From Bacilli bacterium (GTDB lineage Bacteria; Bacillota_I; Bacilli_A; RFN20; CAG-826): a stretch of DNA of 35,866 nucleotides. The stretch spans positions 1-35,866 of the forward strand of contig JAKSUY010000010.1 in the NCBI GenBank assembly GCA_024408495.1, read 5' to 3'. The first letter of the stretch is position 1. Each line of letters begins with the position of its first letter. A model generated the notes under the pieces. That model saw nothing but the letters and a program-made list of their open reading frames with translations, searched no databases and had not been told where the DNA came from. This document shows positions 10,435-30,794 of the stretch, piece after piece. The position numbers were made by a program, and so were the translations under genes.

Positions 10435-10995
10435 TTACTTAACCTTCTTGGCCCATCTAAAATATGTCATATAGGAAATCTTAAATTCTCTTGCTACACT
10501 AGTCGCGGTCCTTTTTCCTTCTTTAACATCGTTAACTGCTTCTTTAAATTTAACCTTATCGTATTCTCTAGGCGCTTTACCTTTATATTTACCTTGTTTC
10601 TTAGCAATCTCTATACCTTCTGCTTGTCTAGCTCTTATATTCTCACGTTCAAGTTCCGCTAATCCGCCAAACACGGTAATCATAAACTTACCAGATGGAG
10701 TGGCAGTATCTACTTTCTCTTTTAGAGAAACGAATGACACTTTCTTCTTTTTAAGCTTATCTACTATAGTAAGTAGGTCGATCGTATTACGTGCGATACG
10801 AGAGAACGACTCGCAAATAACAACGTCCCCTGCTCTTGCGAATTCTAACATCTTATTTAATTGAGGACGATCTTTAGCGTTCTTACCAGACATCTTATCA
10901 ATAAAAAGTTTTTCGGCCTTACATTCCTTAGCCATTTCTTTCTGTCTTGCAATGTTCTGATCAAGGCTACTAACTCTTATGTAAAAAATCTTCAT
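10435..10995 (-). CDS. serine recombinase (resolvase/invertase family)
   Basis: This 186-aa protein has the resolvase N-terminal catalytic domain: FYIRVSS with Ser9 as nucleophile, DKMSGKNAKDRPQLNKML, GDVVICESFSRIARN, and FGGLAELERENIRARQAEG leading into the E-helix. It ends in an HTH (TATSVAREFKISYMTYFRW). The length and order are those of Tn3/gamma-delta resolvases and Hin-type invertases, which cut and rejoin DNA at a specific dimeric site. I chose the ATG at 10995 rather than an upstream in-frame ATG at 11013, because the -10 box lies between them. The promoter is overlaid by an inverted repeat that could be the recombinase's own site. Two truncated relatives lie at 257-446 and 1825-2070. 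It may be an independent element or a genome-wide family that inverts or resolves surface-gene regions. Confidence 0.88.
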   Translation of the reverse strand: MKIFYIRVSSLDQNIARQKEMAKECKAEKLFIDKMSGKNAKDRPQLNKMLEFARAGDVVICESFSRIARNTIDLLTIVDKLKKKKVSFVSLKEKVDTATPSGKFMITVFGGLAELERENIRARQAEGIEIAKKQGKYKGKAPREYDKVKFKEAVNDVKEGKRTATSVAREFKISYMTYFRWAKKVK

Positions 10996-11003
10996 ACATG
11001 CAT

Positions 11004-11032
11004 AGTATAACATTGGGGTGGTCGATTTTCAA
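11004..11032 (-). promoter_or_regulatory. promoter of the serine recombinase gene
   Basis: On the minus strand, TTGAAA (11032-11027), a 17-bp spacer and TATACT (11009-11004) form a near-consensus promoter. The -10 box is 8 nt from the ATG at 10995, implying a leaderless message. Both boxes overlap arms of the inverted repeat described next. Confidence 0.6.
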
Positions 11033-23307: not shown

Positions 23308-24609
23308 CTATTTAATAACTTCTATTTGAGTTTTGATATTACCAATCGTAGTTGCTTCCATTGGAATTGGAATAACTTGACACTTAGTTATTTCTTCGGT
23401 GAATTTATTAAGAGCCTTGTTATTGGCACCACCGCCAACGATGCAAATTCGATTATATCTTTGAGCGAGGTTATCAGATAATTCATTACACACTTTAAGA
23501 TAAAACGTGGCTAAAGAACGCAAAATCGCACGATATAGATCGCCATCGCTCTTCGGTGGATTGTTTGATGGTAATAATTTAATAATCGCTTCTTTCATAT
23601 CCGCGGGTGATAAAAGCGAATAGTCATTAACATCAAAAATTTCGTTATAGGTAGATGCTAATGCAAGGGCGCTAATTTCATCATAACCATATGTATGTTT
23701 CTTTTTTACTTCAGTATAAAGCCATAACCCCATAACATTCTTAAGATAACAAATAAAGTCTTTGCCACCTTCATTTGTAAAATTAGTCTCAAGACTACGA
23801 ATTGAATTGTTGCCTTGCTTTAATTTCACGCCAACAAGTGACCAAGTGCCACTTGAAATGATTACTGAATCTAAATCAACATCAATCGCATGGAAAGCAG
23901 AAGCAGTATCATGGGTTAAAGGAAGTACTACTTGAGCGTTGCTTCCAATTTGCTCAGCAATTTCTGGTTTTAATGAACCAAGAATATATCCCGGTTTCAC
24001 TAAAGGTTTAAATAATTGCTTAGGGAAATTGAGTTTATTAATAATTGCTTCAGAATATTCACCGGTCTTTATATCAACCATTCCGGTTGTAGTAGCCATG
24101 GTATATTCATGCGCCTTATTCCCAGTTAATAAATAAGAGAAATATTCAGGGATAAATAAGAAATCTGCTGCTTTAGCGAAACGGCCTTGTTTATGATCAT
24201 CCATAAATTGATAAATAGAATTCACTAAATTCTTTTGGATGCCAGTAATAGAATAAAGTTCGTTAAAAGGAATAATTTTATGAACTTCTTCCATCGTTCT
24301 TTGTGCTCTAGAATCGCGATAAGAATAGACTGGTAAAATTGGTTGATTATTATTATCTAATAAAACATAATCAACACCCCAGGAATCAATTCCAATTGAA
24401 GTGATCGTGTGATATTTTTCAACTGCTTTCTTAAGGCCGATTAAGATGTTATTCCAAATCTTATCTATGTCCCAAGTAAAAACACCATTATCGTTTTTTA
24501 AATAATCCTTGAAACGATAAACTTCATCAAGGTGGCGCCCATCATTGGAAACAATGATGCGTCCGCTAGTTGCGCCTAAATCAACGGCTACATAATTATT
24601 TAATGGCAT
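23308..24609 (-). CDS. rhaB: rhamnulokinase-type L-rhamnulose/L-fuculose kinase
   Basis: This FGGY-family kinase phosphorylates the ketose made by the isomerase at C1. The 433-aa protein has the RhaB N-terminal phosphate-binding motif VAVDLGATSGRIIV, GIDSWGVDYVLLD, YRDSRA, SSGTWSLVG and VGGGANNKALNKF. It stops after PMEATTIGNIKTQIEVIK. RhaB proteins normally continue about 40 residues beyond the matching GNI-x-Q segment (E. coli RhaB is 489 aa), so the C-terminal helix is missing. The start overlaps rhaD by 14 bp, and the stop is followed at once by the terminator. In this operon the likely substrate is L-fuculose, L-rhamnulose or both. Confidence 0.85.
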   Translation of the reverse strand: MPLNNYVAVDLGATSGRIIVSNDGRHLDEVYRFKDYLKNDNGVFTWDIDKIWNNILIGLKKAVEKYHTITSIGIDSWGVDYVLLDNNNQPILPVYSYRDSRAQRTMEEVHKIIPFNELYSITGIQKNLVNSIYQFMDDHKQGRFAKAADFLFIPEYFSYLLTGNKAHEYTMATTTGMVDIKTGEYSEAIINKLNFPKQLFKPLVKPGYILGSLKPEIAEQIGSNAQVVLPLTHDTASAFHAIDVDLDSVIISSGTWSLVGVKLKQGNNSIRSLETNFTNEGGKDFICYLKNVMGLWLYTEVKKKHTYGYDEISALALASTYNEIFDVNDYSLLSPADMKEAIIKLLPSNNPPKSDGDLYRAILRSLATFYLKVCNELSDNLAQRYNRICIVGGGANNKALNKFTEEITKCQVIPIPMEATTIGNIKTQIEVIK

Positions 24610-25423
24610 CGAGTTGTTTATACACTCCTTTCATTGGTTTAAGATTCCAAAGCTTACATAGACCTACTAGTACACTTACTGGAATCACATTCACTACGTG
24701 TCCTAACGAAATCATATAAACCATTGCGGTTTTTTCTACAGTTTCAATTAATCCAAACGCTTCATCAATATCCTTACCGCAACCATAAATACCATGGTTT
24801 GTCCAACTCACGATTCTAAAATTCTTCATTTTCTTAGCAGTCGCAATACCAATTTCGTTTGTGCCGCAAAGCATACAAGGAAGTACACCGATACCTTCTG
24901 GGAAAACGACAATTGCTTCTGTATTACTTGTCCATAGACGTTTAGTAAATTCTTTTTCGTTAACAGGCACTGAAGCACCCATACACATTGTGTAAGTTGG
25001 ATGAGTATGCATAATAATACGGTTGTCAGGATTAACCTTTAAGCGCTCCGCATGACACATAATATGGGCTGGGAATTCACTGGTGAATTTGCCCCCATCT
25101 TTATAACCCCAAAGTAAGTTAGCGACCTTTCCACTTTTATCAATTCTTACTAACCCTAAATTGGTTTCTGGATCTTTAATAACATTTTTAAAATATTTAC
25201 CAGTACCAGTAACTAAAAAGCACTTACCGCGAACAATTGGATCAGCGGCAAAGCCCATTGGGATTTTACGAATAACTTTTTCTTTTGGAAAATATTGTTT
25301 AATGTATTTTTCATCAATTAAATAAGAAATATTACCACCGTTTCTTTCATCCCATCCCTGACGATACATATTGGCAGTTATTTCTGCCACTTCTTTAACA
25401 AATTTTGAATCAATAAATTTCAT
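24596..25423 (-). CDS. rhaD: rhamnulose-1-phosphate aldolase-type class II aldolase
   Basis: The 275-aa protein aligns by eye with E. coli RhaD (274 aa) over its length: GWDERNGGN, FLVTGTGKYFKNV, PAH-x-MCH, IIMHTHPTYTMCMG with the zinc-binding His pair, VVFPEGIGVLP and NHGIYGCGKDIDEAFGLIETVEK. It splits the ketose 1-phosphate into dihydroxyacetone phosphate and L-lactaldehyde. It is longer than FucA (about 215 aa) and carries the RhaD-specific N-terminal region, so I call it RhaD-type. It must serve L-fuculose 1-phosphate if FucI works on fucose. A strong AAGGAG site precedes the ATG. Confidence 0.9.
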   Translation of the reverse strand: MKFIDSKFVKEVAEITANMYRQGWDERNGGNISYLIDEKYIKQYFPKEKVIRKIPMGFAADPIVRGKCFLVTGTGKYFKNVIKDPETNLGLVRIDKSGKVANLLWGYKDGGKFTSEFPAHIMCHAERLKVNPDNRIIMHTHPTYTMCMGASVPVNEKEFTKRLWTSNTEAIVVFPEGIGVLPCMLCGTNEIGIATAKKMKNFRIVSWTNHGIYGCGKDIDEAFGLIETVEKTAMVYMISLGHVVNVIPVSVLVGLCKLWNLKPMKGVYKQLDAIK

Positions 25424-25433
25424 ATTATCTCCT

Positions 25434-25760
25434 TTATTTAAAACTAAATACTTTTTTTAATTTTGGTTGAGCGACCTTTTTACTAACTTTCATCATCATA
25501 ACATCTTTCATATATTCGTTCCAGCGCTTAACCACAGGCGAATTGTTTTGAATTTTCATTGCATACGCTATGCCTTTTGTGCATTCATAATAACCGAAAA
25601 GACGATTATCATCACCTAGCCATATGGTGTAATTAACAATTCCTGCTTTTGCTAGAACTTGTTTCATCTCTGGCCAAATATTTTGATGACGTTTAATATA
25701 TTCCGCTTGTTTGTTAGGAAGAATACAAGCTGACCAAGAAAATTTCTCAACCTTTTTCAT
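25434..25760 (-). CDS. rhaM: L-rhamnose/L-fucose mutarotase (RhaM family)
   Basis: This 108-aa protein belongs to the RhaM/YiiL family that interconverts anomers of 6-deoxyhexoses. The conserved region KRHQNIWPEMKQVLAKAGIVNYTIWL, with the catalytic-type His in RHxxIWPE, and the segment RLFGYYE are present. Its ATG overlaps the fucO stop (TAATG), so translation is coupled. FucU, a second mutarotase of an unrelated fold, is encoded 3 kb upstream, so one of the two may serve a different sugar. Confidence 0.88.
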   Translation of the reverse strand: MKKVEKFSWSACILPNKQAEYIKRHQNIWPEMKQVLAKAGIVNYTIWLGDDNRLFGYYECTKGIAYAMKIQNNSPVVKRWNEYMKDVMMMKVSKKVAQPKLKKVFSFK

Positions 25761-26905
25761 TATAGTAACGATTTATAAAGTTTAATAATGTCGTTCTTAG
25801 TCGGAGTACGTGGATTACCTGGAGTGCAAGCATCCTTCATCGCGTTCTCAGTTAAAAAGTTGATATCTTCCGCTTTCATAATCTTTTTTAAATCAGCAGG
25901 AATACCAACATCTTTACTTAATTTCGCGACGGCTTTAATGGCGGCTTCACGGTACTGTTTTTGAGTCATCTTGTCAACATTCTTCACTCCCATTGCACGA
26001 GCGATTTCACGATACTTCTCTCCGGTTGCTGGAGCATTATATTTCATAATCGTTGGAAGTAAGATTGCATTCGCAACACCGTGTGGGGTGTCATAAAGCG
26101 CGCCTAAAGAGTGCGCCATTGAGTGAACAATACCTAATCCCACGTTACTAAAGCCCATACCAGCAATGTATTGACCTAAGGCCATGCCTTCACGTCCTTC
26201 TTTAGTGTTATTAACTGCACCACGTAAATGTTTGCTAATTAAACGAATCGCTTCAAGATGGAACATATCGCTTAATTCCCAAGCACCTTTTGTGATATAA
26301 CCTTCAATTGCATGAGTTAAAGCATCCATACCAGTTGAAGCAGTTAAACCTTTTGGCATTGTGCTCATCATGATTGGATCAACAATCGCAACTACTGGAA
26401 TATCGTGTGGATCAGCACAAACGAATTTACGTTTTTTCTTAACATCTGTGATTACATAGTTAATCGTAACTTCTGCTGCAGTACCCGCCGTAGTTGGGAT
26501 CGCAATGATTGGTAAAGCTTTCTTTTTGCTTTTTTCTGCGCCTTCTAATGAACGAACACCAATATGCTCTGGGTTCGCCATAATGATACCAATACCTTTA
26601 GCAGTATCAATTGCGCTACCGCCACCGATGGCGATTAAATAATCCGCTTTTGCTTTTTTCATCGCTTTAATGCCGCATTGGACATTTTCGATGGTTGGAT
26701 TAGGCTTAATGTTGCTATAGATTTCATAAGGAAGTTTAGCCTTCTTTAATAAATCAGTAACATTATCAACAACTTTGAATTTAATCAATTCTGGAGTTGT
26801 ACAAATGAGCGCTTTCTTTAAGCCTCTCATTTTGATTTCTTTGGTGATGCTTTTAATTGCACCATGACCATGGTAACTAGTTTCGTTTAAGACAAATCTA
26901 TTCAT
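25760..26905 (-). CDS. fucO: lactaldehyde reductase (iron-dependent alcohol dehydrogenase)
   Basis: This 381-aa protein is the length of E. coli FucO. It shows the Fe-ADH family features: GGGSAIDTAKGIG for NAD(H) binding, PTTAGTAAEVT, DALTHAIEGY, and metal-binding His in GIVHSMAHSLGALYDTPHG. It reduces L-lactaldehyde from the aldolase to (S)-1,2-propanediol, re-oxidising NADH under anaerobic conditions. No lactaldehyde dehydrogenase is nearby, which suggests fermentation to propanediol. GGAGG precedes the start, 12 nt after fucI. Confidence 0.92.
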   Translation of the reverse strand: MNRFVLNETSYHGHGAIKSITKEIKMRGLKKALICTTPELIKFKVVDNVTDLLKKAKLPYEIYSNIKPNPTIENVQCGIKAMKKAKADYLIAIGGGSAIDTAKGIGIIMANPEHIGVRSLEGAEKSKKKALPIIAIPTTAGTAAEVTINYVITDVKKKRKFVCADPHDIPVVAIVDPIMMSTMPKGLTASTGMDALTHAIEGYITKGAWELSDMFHLEAIRLISKHLRGAVNNTKEGREGMALGQYIAGMGFSNVGLGIVHSMAHSLGALYDTPHGVANAILLPTIMKYNAPATGEKYREIARAMGVKNVDKMTQKQYREAAIKAVAKLSKDVGIPADLKKIMKAEDINFLTENAMKDACTPGNPRTPTKNDIIKLYKSLL

Positions 26906-26917
26906 AATTTTTCCTCC

Positions 26918-28720
26918 TTATTTACGAATATTTTTATACATCGGACCATAGGTTTCGCATGCGCGATAATCTTGGCCCTCTTTGCACATACCAAATGCAT
27001 TCCACGCAGCTGGACGATAAATCTTATCTTCTTCTACATTATGATAGGCAACCGGAATGCGAAGAATTGAACACATTGTAATTAAGTCTTGACCAATGTG
27101 ACCATAAGAAATAGCTCCGTGGTTAGCGCCCCAGTTATTCATAACATCATAAGCCGACTTAGCTGGACCACTCTTAGTTACTCTTGGAGTAAACCAAGTA
27201 CACGGCCAGGTATAATCAGTACGTTTATAAAGGATATCACTTACTTTATCAGGGAGTTTAACGGTCCAACCTTCAACAATCTGCATAACCGGACCTAATC
27301 CTTTAATAATATTAAGACGCGCCATGGTAGCAGGCATTTCGGCGCGAGTTACAAAGCGAGAAGAAAAACCTCCACCACGGAAATAACCTAAATCAGCCGC
27401 TGGCCAAGTTGTGTGATCCATCATAATTTTAATATCCTTATTAGTTACTTTCCACCACTCTTTCATCACCGACACACCGTTTTCTTTTACTTCACCACAC
27501 GCGTCCACGCAGCATGCACCAGAATTAATTAGGTGAATAATTCCACCCGCATCTTTAGCGTGACCAGTCAATTCATAATTAGTAACACGTTTCACTGAGT
27601 TTGTTGACCAATAGGTACGGACATCCGCAAACATCTGTGCGCGACCAGTTAATAGTTTCATAAATAACATGGTTGTAGCATTTAAAGTATCATTTTCAGT
27701 TCCTAAGATATAAGGTTCTCTTGCTCCGTTCCAATCAAACGATGAATTAAGAATTGATTCAGGGAAGTCGCAGTTAGGATAGAAATCAGTCCATTGTCTT
27801 TGACCTTGGAAGCCACCCACAATTGCGTTATGGCCAACCATCTCTTCTTCACGACCGACTGGTAAATTCTTATTGCCGTTGAATAAATCTTTAATAATAC
27901 ATGCCATCTTAACTGTAAATTCCCAATCTTTGTTCTTTTCCGCTTTACTCTTTTGGAATTGTTTAGGATTTTTATCAAAATCAGGATGACAATTTTCTTT
28001 TACCCATGCTAACGCTTTAGCATATTCTTTCTTATCATAAATTCCTTGTTCCATGCGAAGGATGATTTCAACTTCATCAACTGATTCTATTCTCATACCA
28101 AGATAGTCCTCAAAGAAATTAGGATCAATAATTGACCCACCAATGCCCATCGTAACACTACCAATTTGTAAATAAGATTTGCCACGCATTGTAGCAGCAG
28201 CAACCGCACAACGAGCGAATCTTAAAATCTTTTCGCTAACATCATTTGGAATTGATGTGTCATCCATATCTTGAACTTCATGACCATAAATGCCAAATGC
28301 CGGTAATCCTTTTTGGGCGTGAGTTGCTAAAACACTAGCTAAATAAACCGCACCCGGTCTTTCGGTTCCGTTAAATCCCCAAACCGCTTTGATGGTCATT
28401 GGATCCATATCCATGGTTTCCGCACCATAGCACCAGCAAGGGGTTACAGTTAAAGTAATATCAACACCAGCCTTTTTAAATTTATCAGCACATGCAGCTG
28501 CTTCCGCCACACGACCAATAGTAGTGTCGGCAATGATAACTTTTACTTTTTCACCATTAGAATATCTGACATTATCTTCAATTAATTTCTTAGCAGCTTT
28601 TGCCATATTCATCGTTTGGTCTTCAAGCGATTCACGGACTTTAATTTTGCCACGTCGTCCATCAATAGTTGGGCGAATACCGATTACTGGATAGCTACCA
28701 ATTAATCTTGATTTAGCCAT
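26918..28720 (-). CDS. fucI: L-fucose isomerase
   Basis: This 600-aa enzyme (E. coli FucI has 591 aa) converts L-fucose to L-fuculose with Mn2+ as cofactor. The FucI signature regions are present: [53 protein letters not shown] and [15 protein letters not shown]. The metal ligands are in [20 protein letters not shown] (Glu and Asp) and in the GH of [11 protein letters not shown]. It is the first gene of the catabolic operon and has a strong AAGGAGA ribosome binding site. In the upstream leader that site can pair with an inverted copy. No RhaA is present, so FucI is the only isomerase here. Confidence 0.95.
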
Positions 28721-28724
28721 AAAA

Positions 28725-28802
28725 AATCTCCTTATAGTCTACAAAATAAATATATCACAATTAAATAGATATATCTATTTAGAAAGATTATATAAGGAGA
28801 TT
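28725..28802 (-). promoter_or_regulatory. inverted repeat that could mask the fucI ribosome binding site
   Basis: TATAAGGAGATT on the minus strand (28736-28725) contains the fucI Shine-Dalgarno site. Its exact reverse complement AATCTCCTTATA lies upstream in the same transcript (28802-28791), so a 12-bp stem could form in mRNA that reads through from rny-fucU. Transcripts starting between the arms would lack the upstream arm and have a free site. The effect on translation is inferred. Confidence 0.45.
28762..28781. promoter_or_regulatory. 20-bp perfect palindrome upstream of fucI (operator candidate)
   Basis: The half-site TAAATAGATA (28762-28771) is followed directly by its reverse complement TATCTATTTA. 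It lies 41 bp upstream of the fucI start, in the only gap of the operon that could hold a promoter. Perfect symmetry suggests a dimeric regulator site. No regulator gene is encoded nearby, and no copy was seen before the transporter operon. Such AT-only palindromes also arise by chance. Confidence 0.4.
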
Positions 28803-28806
28803 AATT

Positions 28807-29229
28807 TTACTTAATTACACCTTTTTTAATAATGATATTACCGTAGATTCTTTCTTCTCCGGTTTGAATAACTAGATAAGCATCTTTACTTCTTTCGTAG
28901 AAAGCGAAACGCTCAAGCATTTTCTTTTTTACATTCTTATCTAATGACTTAGCAATCTTATCAAATTCTTTCCAAATCGTAGGAGTTGGATCGCCATTAG
29001 TCGTTTTCATTAACATAAAGTTTTCTTTTGCGTATGTATCTAAAGGAATAACCATTAATACCGCTTTAAGCATATCAGTACCTGAAATGCCATCCGCGCG
29101 TATTACGTGTTTATTCATTTTATGTGCAGGAAAATTTGCATCTGCAATTACTACTTCATCACCATGTCCCATTTCACTTAAAGCTTTAAGTAATTCAGGA
29201 CTTAATAATTTTGGTAAATTCTTTAACAT
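28807..29229 (-). CDS. fucU: L-fucose mutarotase (FucU/RbsD family)
   Basis: The 140-aa protein matches FucU: LPKLLSPELLKALSEMGHGDEVVIADANFPAH at the N-terminus (His in MGHGDE and FPAH), PLDTY, and a C-terminal ERFAFYERSKDAYLVIQTGEERIYGNIIIKKGVI. It interconverts alpha- and beta-L-fucose so that FucI receives its preferred anomer. The ATG stands 2 nt after the rny stop with no separate promoter, so it is expressed from the rny transcript. It is cut off from fucI by an 86-nt gap with its own regulatory signals. Confidence 0.92.
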   Translation of the reverse strand: MLKNLPKLLSPELLKALSEMGHGDEVVIADANFPAHKMNKHVIRADGISGTDMLKAVLMVIPLDTYAKENFMLMKTTNGDPTPTIWKEFDKIAKSLDKNVKKKMLERFAFYERSKDAYLVIQTGEERIYGNIIIKKGVIK

Positions 29230-29231
29230 AA

Positions 29232-30794
29232 TTATTTAGCGGTCTCAGTCGCACGATATTCACGAATTACGTTAATTTTGATTTCACCAGGATAAGTAAC
29301 ATCGCTTTGAATCTTTTCTTTTAAGGTTCTAGCAAGTTTATAAGCGGCTTCATCATTAATTTGTTCTGGCACTACCATAACGCGTACTTCACGTCCAGAT
29401 TGCATCGCGAAAGCCTTAGCAACACCTGGATAAGAAGTACAAATCTTTTCAAGTTGTTCAATACGTTGGACGTAGGTTTCAAGGGTTTCACTTCTTGCAC
29501 CTGGTCTAGCGGCTGATAAGGTATCAGCAGCTGCAACTAAAGTGGCAATAACGAATTTACTTTCTTCATCACCATGGTGAGATGCGATTGAATTAACCAC
29601 AACATCAGGTTCGCCAAATTTCTTGGCTAAACGAGCGCCTAGTTCAACGTGGGTGCCATCGACCTCATAGTCAATCGCTTTACCGATATCATGGAGTAGA
29701 CCAGCGCGTTTAGCGACGGTTTGATCTAAGCCTAATTCAGCAGCCATAATGCCAGCTAAATAAGCAACATCCATTGAGTGGTCATAAGCATTTTGACCAT
29801 AACTAGTTCTAAATTTAAGACGGCCAACATAGTCTAATAATTCATTAGCGATATGCGGTAAGCCAAGTTTAAAGGCGGCTTCTTGACCAGCTTTATGAAT
29901 TTGTTCATTCATCTCTTCGGCGGCTTTCTTCGCGAATTCTTCAATACGAGATGGTTGAATTCTTCCATCCTTAATTAAATACTCTAGAGTTCTCTTGGCG
30001 ATTTCTCTACGAAGTGGGTTGAAGCTAGAAACGGTAATTACTTCGGGTGTATCATCAATAATTAAATCCACACCGAGTAATTGTTCTAAAGTACGAATGT
30101 TACGACCTTCACGACCGATAATTCTACCTTTCATTTCATCGCTTGGAAGTTGCACACTAGTGACGCTATGCATCGTGATTTCATCTTGCGCATACTTGTT
30201 CGTAGCAAGAGCGATAAGATTGCGCGCTTTATCGGCTGCGCTTTCTTCCGCCTCTTCTTCACGCTTTTTCATGTACGCGGTGATTTCATGATCCATTTTC
30301 TCTTTCACGCGTTCAAGCACTTCTTGTTTGGCTTCGCTTTGAGACATCTTAGCGACTTTCTCTAATTCAACGATAATTGAATCAATTTTCGCTTGAAGTT
30401 CTTTCGCCTTCTCTTCATTCATCTTAATGCCACTATCTAATTTCTCTGATTTAGCATTTAAGATTTTTTCTTTTTCGGAAAGATTAGCATCGCGTCTCTC
30501 AATGCTGTTCTCCCGTTGATTAAGTTTGTTTTCAATACTAGCAATTTCTTGCTTTCTCTCCTTAATCTCTTTGTCAACCTCTTGCTTAGCTTCATAAGTT
30601 GTTTGTTTTGCTTCAACTTGGGCGGTATGAATAATCTTCCGGCCTTTCTCTTCAGCATCGGCAAGGAGCTTTTCTGCTTTCTTCTCTGCGCTTGCGCCTT
30701 TTTTGTTTTGGCGGACAATGTAGTAAACTAATCCACCACACGCTAAAATGGCGACAATCGCTAGGGCTAAGAAAACACCTGTTAAAATGTCCAT
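29232..30794 (-). CDS. rny: ribonuclease Y
   Basis: RNase Y is the membrane-bound endoribonuclease that starts mRNA decay in Firmicutes. The 520-aa protein has one N-terminal membrane helix (residues about 5-27) and a long charged coiled coil (about 30-205). A KH domain follows (DEMKGRIIGREGRNIRTLEQLLG), and then an HD domain with AGLLHDIGKAID and SHHGDE. Its length and layout match B. subtilis Rny (520 aa). TAGGAG serves as ribosome binding site. The 143-bp AT-rich gap upstream (30795-30937) holds several TATAAT-like sequences but no pair of boxes I can assign with certainty. Confidence 0.95.
   Translation of the reverse strand: MDILTGVFLALAIVAILACGGLVYYIVRQNKKGASAEKKAEKLLADAEEKGRKIIHTAQVEAKQTTYEAKQEVDKEIKERKQEIASIENKLNQRENSIERRDANLSEKEKILNAKSEKLDSGIKMNEEKAKELQAKIDSIIVELEKVAKMSQSEAKQEVLERVKEKMDHEITAYMKKREEEAEESAADKARNLIALATNKYAQDEITMHSVTSVQLPSDEMKGRIIGREGRNIRTLEQLLGVDLIIDDTPEVITVSSFNPLRREIAKRTLEYLIKDGRIQPSRIEEFAKKAAEEMNEQIHKAGQEAAFKLGLPHIANELLDYVGRLKFRTSYGQNAYDHSMDVAYLAGIMAAELGLDQTVAKRAGLLHDIGKAIDYEVDGTHVELGARLAKKFGEPDVVVNSIASHHGDEESKFVIATLVAAADTLSAARPGARSETLETYVQRIEQLEKICTSYPGVAKAFAMQSGREVRVMVVPEQINDEAAYKLARTLKEKIQSDVTYPGEIKINVIREYRATETAK

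Follow-up and report, generated by a model that had tools for sequence, protein, structure and literature searches.

How fucI (L-fucose isomerase) and the catabolic genes behind it could stay off, although they lie directly behind rny and fucU, is the question raised by this locus of a Bacilli bacterium (CAG-826, assembly GCA_024408495.1). That RNA from rny-fucU reads through into fucI we infer from the gene order. The window analysed here is the whole 35,866-nt stretch of contig JAKSUY010000010.1, and its genome is labelled G000 in the comparison of the genus.

Layout of the fucI leader

Upstream genes, leader elements and downstream genes all share the minus strand and are arranged as follows, in the direction of transcription:

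29232 to 30794, minus strand: rny (RNase Y), a co-oriented housekeeping gene (Pfam RNase_Y_N, HD, and KH_1), 2 nt before fucU
28807 to 29229, minus strand: fucU (L-fucose mutarotase-like; Pfam RbsD_FucU), the final gene ahead of the leader
28791 to 28802, minus strand: 5' arm (anti-Shine-Dalgarno), AATCTCCTTATA, exact complement of 28725 to 28736
28762 to 28781: perfect 20-bp palindrome TAAATAGATATATCTATTTA, putative operator of a dimeric regulator, overlapping the -35 region
28772 to 28777, minus strand: weak -35-like hexamer TAGATA within the palindrome (consensus scan, 9/12 together with 28754-28749)
28749 to 28757, minus strand: extended -10-like element TGA-TATATT (consensus scan; TGN-TATATT is kept in four genomes)
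28740 to 28742, minus strand: putative own transcription start, placed from the -10 position, about 7 nt past it
28725 to 28736, minus strand: 3' arm with the fucI Shine-Dalgarno (SD) sequence AAGGAG, TATAAGGAGATT, exact complement of the 5' arm
28721 to 28726, minus strand: run of six T, a terminator-like U-tract between GGAGA and ATG, its first two T being part of the 3' arm
26918 to 28720, minus strand: fucI (Pfam; NCBIfam fucI above cut-off)
23308 to 26905, minus strand: whole block of downstream catabolic genes (Pfam and NCBIfam profiles), made up of the next four entries
25760 to 26905, minus strand: lactaldehyde reductase
25434 to 25760, minus strand: RhaM-type mutarotase
24596 to 25423, minus strand: rhamnulose-1-P aldolase type
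23308 to 24609, minus strand: rhamnulokinase type

The fucU product scores 134.6 bits against the NCBIfam L-fucose mutarotase model, slightly below the 141-bit cut-off, and the fucU stop codon lies 4 nt from the 5' arm. All four genomes of the genus that carry fucI preserve the linkage of rny and fucU (2 nt apart in the window, 28807-30794; L102, L103, L104), even with fucI separated from the pair. Elsewhere in the window, 10435-11013 encodes a resolvase with a C-terminal HTH, and a shorter ORF (1825-2070) ends in nearly the same HTH sequence; we take them to be, perhaps, two copies of an IS607-like element.

The complementary arms and their predicted fold

A preliminary description of this DNA had stated that 28802-28791 (AATCTCCTTATA) and the segment holding the fucI ribosome binding site (28736-28725, TATAAGGAGATT) are exact reverse complements of each other, which was confirmed to the base. 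As background, 143 SD-bearing gene starts were scored in 421,892 bases of the same genome (the window and 20 further stretches). Within -120 to -25, the longest stretch able to form Watson-Crick pairs with the SD region measures 12 nt at fucI and at most 8 nt at the other 142 starts. The 6 nt preceding the start codon are all T at one start, again that of fucI, which is the only outlier for arm length and T-run alike. When the leader was resampled by a first-order model trained on the leader itself, complements of at least 12 nt arose in 37 of 50,000 rounds. G000 and G002 each contain a single copy of the pair AATCTCCTT N{36,66} AAGGAGATT, the other three genomes of the genus contain none, and reversed-pattern controls returned zero.

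RNA folding, which had been proposed as a check, gave -27 kcal/mol for 28720-28806 (z -6.8, with 0 of 200 shuffles as good). It also favours the earlier claim that read-through RNA would hide the ribosome binding site. Opening the SD region is predicted to cost 15.5 kcal/mol in read-through RNA versus 6.4 in RNA from the putative own start (14.2 versus 5.5 in G002), and the unpaired probability of AAGGAG in read-through RNA is 0.0 (RNAfold). Part of the SD is also paired in own-start RNA, less strongly. In G004, which has no arm, the cost is 6.8 kcal/mol for RNA coming from its GH gene. With 8 nt of RNA hidden in the polymerase, the folded stem already extends to the last exposed base, a condition needed for intrinsic termination.

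The palindrome and the putative fucI promoter

The palindrome at 28762-28781 (TAAATAGATATATCTATTTA) is perfect over 20 bp, as had been described. Five other perfect 20-bp palindromes occur in the 421,892 bases, all composed of A/T only, and the fucI palindrome is unique in its genome at up to three mismatches. Allowing 0-1 mismatches and W at the centre, it is found at one place each in G000, G002, G003, and G004, upstream of fucI, while G001 holds none within one mismatch. The earlier suggestion that it could bind a regulator has thereby gained weight, since the element is operator-like and kept in four of four fucI-bearing genomes of the genus, arms or not. In all four genomes TGN-TATATT follows directly at a constant distance, and the sole -35-like hexamer (TAGATA) sits inside the palindrome; the -35 region is the usual place for a repressor site. 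As the palindrome is retained with or without the arms, directly before the conserved TGN-TATATT, its most likely role is that of a DNA operator covering the promoter of fucI itself. Its retention in the arm-less G003 and G004 rules out that it acts solely as an RNA structure, and the survival of palindrome and TGN-TATATT there indicates that operator and arms are separate devices. With the promoter-like element between the arms, fucI's own transcripts would be without the 5' arm.

The number of promoter-like hits in the region (6) does not exceed the 7.9 expected from shuffles, and extended -10 motifs, counted crudely, showed no excess across this genome. A candidate promoter at TATAAT (28793-28788) was dropped because it is not retained in G002, and a plus-strand gene using the mirrored SD was rejected because no start codon lies close behind the mirrored AAGGAG.

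As to the presumed regulator, UTRA proteins (PF07702), looked for as a test of a GntR/HutC-type operator, are encoded in 0 of 5 genomes of the genus and in 8 of 14 control genomes. One LacI-family protein is present in each of the five genomes, including the fucI-less G001. The CcpA/LacI operator (cre) consensus is a palindrome with a central CG, and the fucI palindrome, which contains no CG, does not conform to it. The palindrome has no match in IMG/VR, and no riboswitch or other Rfam family reaches its gathering score in the window.

Comparison with relatives

fucI is present in four of the five genomes of the genus, fucU in the same four, and G001 has no fucI match. The gene order is rny-fucU-fucI in G000 and G002 and rny-fucU-GH127-type gene-fucI in G004; in G003, a YhhN-family gene on the opposite strand additionally lies between fucU and the GH gene. 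The arms are present only in G000 and G002, where rny-fucU stands directly upstream of fucI. In G003 and G004 the 5' arm is absent, TTTTCT takes the place of TTTTTT, and terminator-like GGCGAGA..TCTCGCC-T6/T7 elements, read by eye, lie between fucU and the GH gene.

Between G000 and G002, identity amounts to 12/12 in the 5' arm, 20/20 in the palindrome, 6/6 in the -10 element, 11/12 in the 3' arm, and 7/7 in the T-run with ATG. The intervening stretches show 3/9 (the 9 nt next to the 5' arm) and 7/12; in fucI, 379 of 601 third codon positions are identical. The arms of G002, which are spaced differently from those of G000, keep 11 of 12 pairs, with one inner pair lost. Of the conservation with compensatory changes proposed earlier as a check, the arms themselves are found in two of the four genomes, and a compensatory change in them was not seen.

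Across the wider family, fucI was found in 14 of the 196 genomes. The ten fucI leaders outside the genus have neither palindrome nor arm (nine were read by eye, and one is without a readable start). Among the 89 readable fucI leaders of 94 loci, an SD complement of at least 11 nt is found only in the window (L002) and in G002 (L005).

Terminator-like character of the stem

The SD arm leads directly into TTTTTT and ATG, so that the stem resembles an intrinsic terminator and an SD mask at once. This T-run had been overlooked in the preliminary description, and because of it termination is no less likely than SD masking alone. Judged by sequence, such a terminator would end at the start codon of fucI and hold the putative fucI promoter and operator in its loop. 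As in canonical terminators, the U-tract follows directly after the stem (GGAGA-TTTTTT). G000 and G002 both have a T-score of 4.56 after GGAGA, and G003 and G004 one of 3.64; three ordinary terminators score 4.98, 5.38, and 4.23. The loop, however, is structured and 54 nt long, where a canonical terminator has 3-8 nt, and the stem holds only three G-C pairs (the scan tool asks for at least three). Since the loop is that long and the stem is absent from the list of the standard terminator scan, it is terminator-like at most, not a canonical terminator.

Besides the 54-nt loop and the three G-C pairs, the position of the fucU stop codon, 4 nt ahead of the arm, is a weak point for termination, as a ribosome terminating there would cover the 5' arm. 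According to the accessible part of PMC4824070, an E. coli terminator placed several bp downstream of a gene is almost fully repressed, and the accessible part of PMC13323073 describes a polymerase that outruns the ribosomes in B. subtilis and related species. By analogy, the 4-nt spacing would be serious in E. coli and less so where the polymerase outruns the ribosomes.

Known systems

In IS10-type elements, transposase genes are protected from read-through, as outside transcription supplies a 5' arm that masks the start region. The fucI leader would resemble them in masking its start by an arm supplied from outside, although no transposon is present at fucI.

The translational half of the fucI design is of a known kind, represented by gene e of phage T4. 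As described in the accessible part of PMC3014915, longer upstream transcripts of gene e (and also of soc, 49, and I-TevI) bury the SD in a helix, and promoters just upstream of the ribosome site give translated RNA without the 5' strand. In the predicted fold, the fucI SD is likewise base-paired in RNA initiated upstream. Unlike gene e as presented there, the fucI stem is followed by six T at the AUG, a possible terminator, and an operator-like palindrome lies between its arms. Moreover, gene e is a phage lysis gene, whereas fucI is a chromosomal sugar isomerase gene adjoining rny. For the vmlR leader of Bacillus subtilis, the accessible part of PMC9226507 describes an intrinsic terminator together with an SD-sequestering hairpin ahead of a single gene. 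There, the two are separate, antibiotic-responsive hairpins, whereas at fucI one stem would serve for both and would be missing from the gene's own transcripts. Among open PMC papers, none was found on a single stem that is both terminator and SD mask with a promoter in its loop.

Recurrence in the bacterial family

The pattern CTCCTT-gap-AAGGAG-N-TTTTT was searched across the 196 genomes of the family. It occurs at 11 places with gaps of 40-70 and at 92 places with gaps of 8-38, for which the reversed-pattern control gave 7; a control with scrambled 5' arm (TTCCTC) gave 12 places, of which four contain the arm because they read TTCCTCCTT. At 58 of the 102 distinct places, an ORF of 55 aa or more begins 0-8 nt after the T-run, some of those with TTG/GTG starts being doubtful. 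As the SD word itself favours starts, the test rests on the outer base pair, which the pattern leaves free and which was evaluated at 100 of the 102 places. This pair is Watson-Crick in 53 of 57 places of the ORF set (20 C-G, 16 T-A, 15 A-T, and 2 G-C; permutation mean 17.1, with 0 of 10,000 as high) and in 26 of 43 places without an ORF.

Many of the hairpin genes are competence genes, namely ComEA-type (HHH_3, SLBB; NCBIfam ComEA HhH region above cut-off), DprA, and a peptidase C39 transporter. ComEA-like proteins are encoded in 181 of the 196 genomes, and 50 comEA leaders were read (the 30 best matches and 20 picked from other genera). A stem of at least 7 bp covers the SD in 27 of these leaders, from 11 of 22 genera (L245-L252, L256, L258-L261, L264, L265, L267, L269-L271, L273, L277, L283-L285, L289, L292, L294), whereas resampled upstream sequence gave a mean of 0.6 and a maximum of 3 in 200 rounds. 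The count is not phylogenetically independent, as g26 supplies 15 of the 27. At least three T follow in the next 6 nt in 26 of the 27. The stem is lacking in 23 leaders, including both from genus g1 (L275, L276). Stems with compensatory changes (CCTCCATC/GATGGAGG, ATCACCTC/GAGGTGAT, CCTCCTAA/TTAGGAGG, and CTCCTT/AAGGAG) and loops varying from 3 to 20 nt are more readily explained by RNA hairpins than by a protein site whose spacing is fixed.

The comEA and dprA hairpins share with fucI the SD as 3' arm, the T-run, the start codon 0-8 nt further on, and a promoter-like AT motif within the loop, read by eye in many comEA leaders. They differ in their loops (3-20 versus 54 nt), in belonging to competence genes, in that no long palindromic operator was seen, and in being missing from comEA of genus g1. 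Our tentative proposal, for which the balance is still slightly unfavourable, is that this small-genome family of gut Bacillota reuses one design at comEA, dprA, the C39 transporter gene, and fucI. The gene's own SD would form the 3' arm of a terminator and the promoter would lie in or across the loop, so that foreign read-through would end at the AUG and own transcripts would be hairpin-free.

Further observations were made at these places. At L163, L164, L165, L172, L177, L203, and L206, competence-type genes have an SD-covering hairpin with compensatory stem changes and variable loops, and the SD hairpin with T-run is possibly a regulon-wide leader design at such genes. The peptidase C39 transporter gene has the same hairpin at L164, L176, and L202, as does the gene of a conserved protein, about 60 aa long (..GEAITL..LPGGYKF..), at L143:1316-1498, L158, L166:352-534, L175, L178:383-565, L201, and L217. 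For this protein, Pfam (L178) and NCBIfam (L178, L143) gave no match; together with the transporter it perhaps represents a bacteriocin or peptide signal that shares its regulation with competence. In g26, at two places of L168 and at L174, the hairpin is followed by a similar short TTTATGRTTAACAAAG-like sequence with no long reading frame, possibly a small RNA or tiny peptide.

Proposed mechanism and alternative explanations

The features described at fucI are genuine and are conserved in the places where one would expect it, and their best interpretation is a promoter that keeps read-through silent. On balance, we think the leader probably acts as a self-insulating promoter, in which an operator controls fucI's own start and read-through is both terminated and SD-masked. 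The promoter would consist of the extended -10 element at 28757-28749 and a -35 region under the palindromic operator, and a dimeric regulator covering that region would switch fucI together with the downstream catabolic genes. Transcripts from this promoter would begin near 28741, without the 5' arm and the palindrome, leaving the SD free. RNA entering from rny-fucU would carry both arms; with the polymerase at the T-run, the 12-bp stem would close with its base at the U-tract, and the transcript would end at the fucI AUG. RNA escaping termination would have its SD buried. By termination and SD burial together, the inducible fucI operon would not be expressed by housekeeping transcription from rny. 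The earlier formulation that fucI is kept off unless its own promoter is active stands insofar as the SD is predicted to be folded away in read-through RNA; it had overlooked termination, and the arms are absent from two of the four genomes.

Pure translational masking, in which the SD of read-through RNA is hidden, no termination takes place, and the T-run is merely an unstructured spacer, would account for the difference in opening cost (15.5 versus 6.4 kcal/mol) and has its exact functional precedent in T4 gene e, as given in the accessible part of PMC3014915. The long loop and weak stem, which make termination doubtful, speak for it as well, as does the comEA leader L265 (G046, g17), whose 7-bp SD stem without T-run is the single case fitting masking alone. 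We nevertheless regard it as rather unlikely, because six T are rare before starts (1/143) and interrupted where the arm is missing, and because a T-run follows 26 of 27 comEA SD stems. It is improbable that the hairpin is an attenuator carried by every fucI transcript, also by regulated ones that start upstream, with a factor or a ribosome at the fucU stop choosing between termination and read-through. A ribosome could indeed open the 5' arm, 4 nt past that stop, and the vmlR leader bears both a terminator and an SD-masking hairpin (accessible part of PMC9226507), but operator and -10 element are kept without the arm in G003 and G004, and no Rfam family was found in the window, the folds examined being those of minimum energy.

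The palindrome does resemble a DNA operator, and one might ask whether the inverted repeats are all protein sites on DNA, arms included, their fit to the SD being incidental. The unequal arm spacing in G000 and G002 makes this very hard to accept, and so do the comEA loops of 3-20 nt with covarying stems, which would be difficult for a dimeric DNA-binding protein. Chance is a similarly faint prospect: the arms, present in two genomes only, would be a coincidence in an AT-rich leader, retained in G002 through recent ancestry, and some resampled leaders (37/50,000) do reach 12 nt. Against this, 14 identical nt around the 5' arm stand beside the 3/9 stretch and third codon positions identical at 379/601, the arm coincides with the six T, and its 12 nt compare with a next best of 8 among 143 starts.

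Implications

The wider interest comes from the recurrence at competence genes rather than from the single fucI leader. In small genomes, genes that must stay off, such as those for DNA uptake or an inducible sugar operon, sit tightly behind housekeeping genes, and a stop signal sharing bases with the SD of the next gene would protect them at zero space cost. Standard tools miss such signals because terminators are sought behind genes and SD masks in regulated leaders. The design predicts RNA 5' and 3' ends in these bacteria, and its covariation signature could be used to find more cases.
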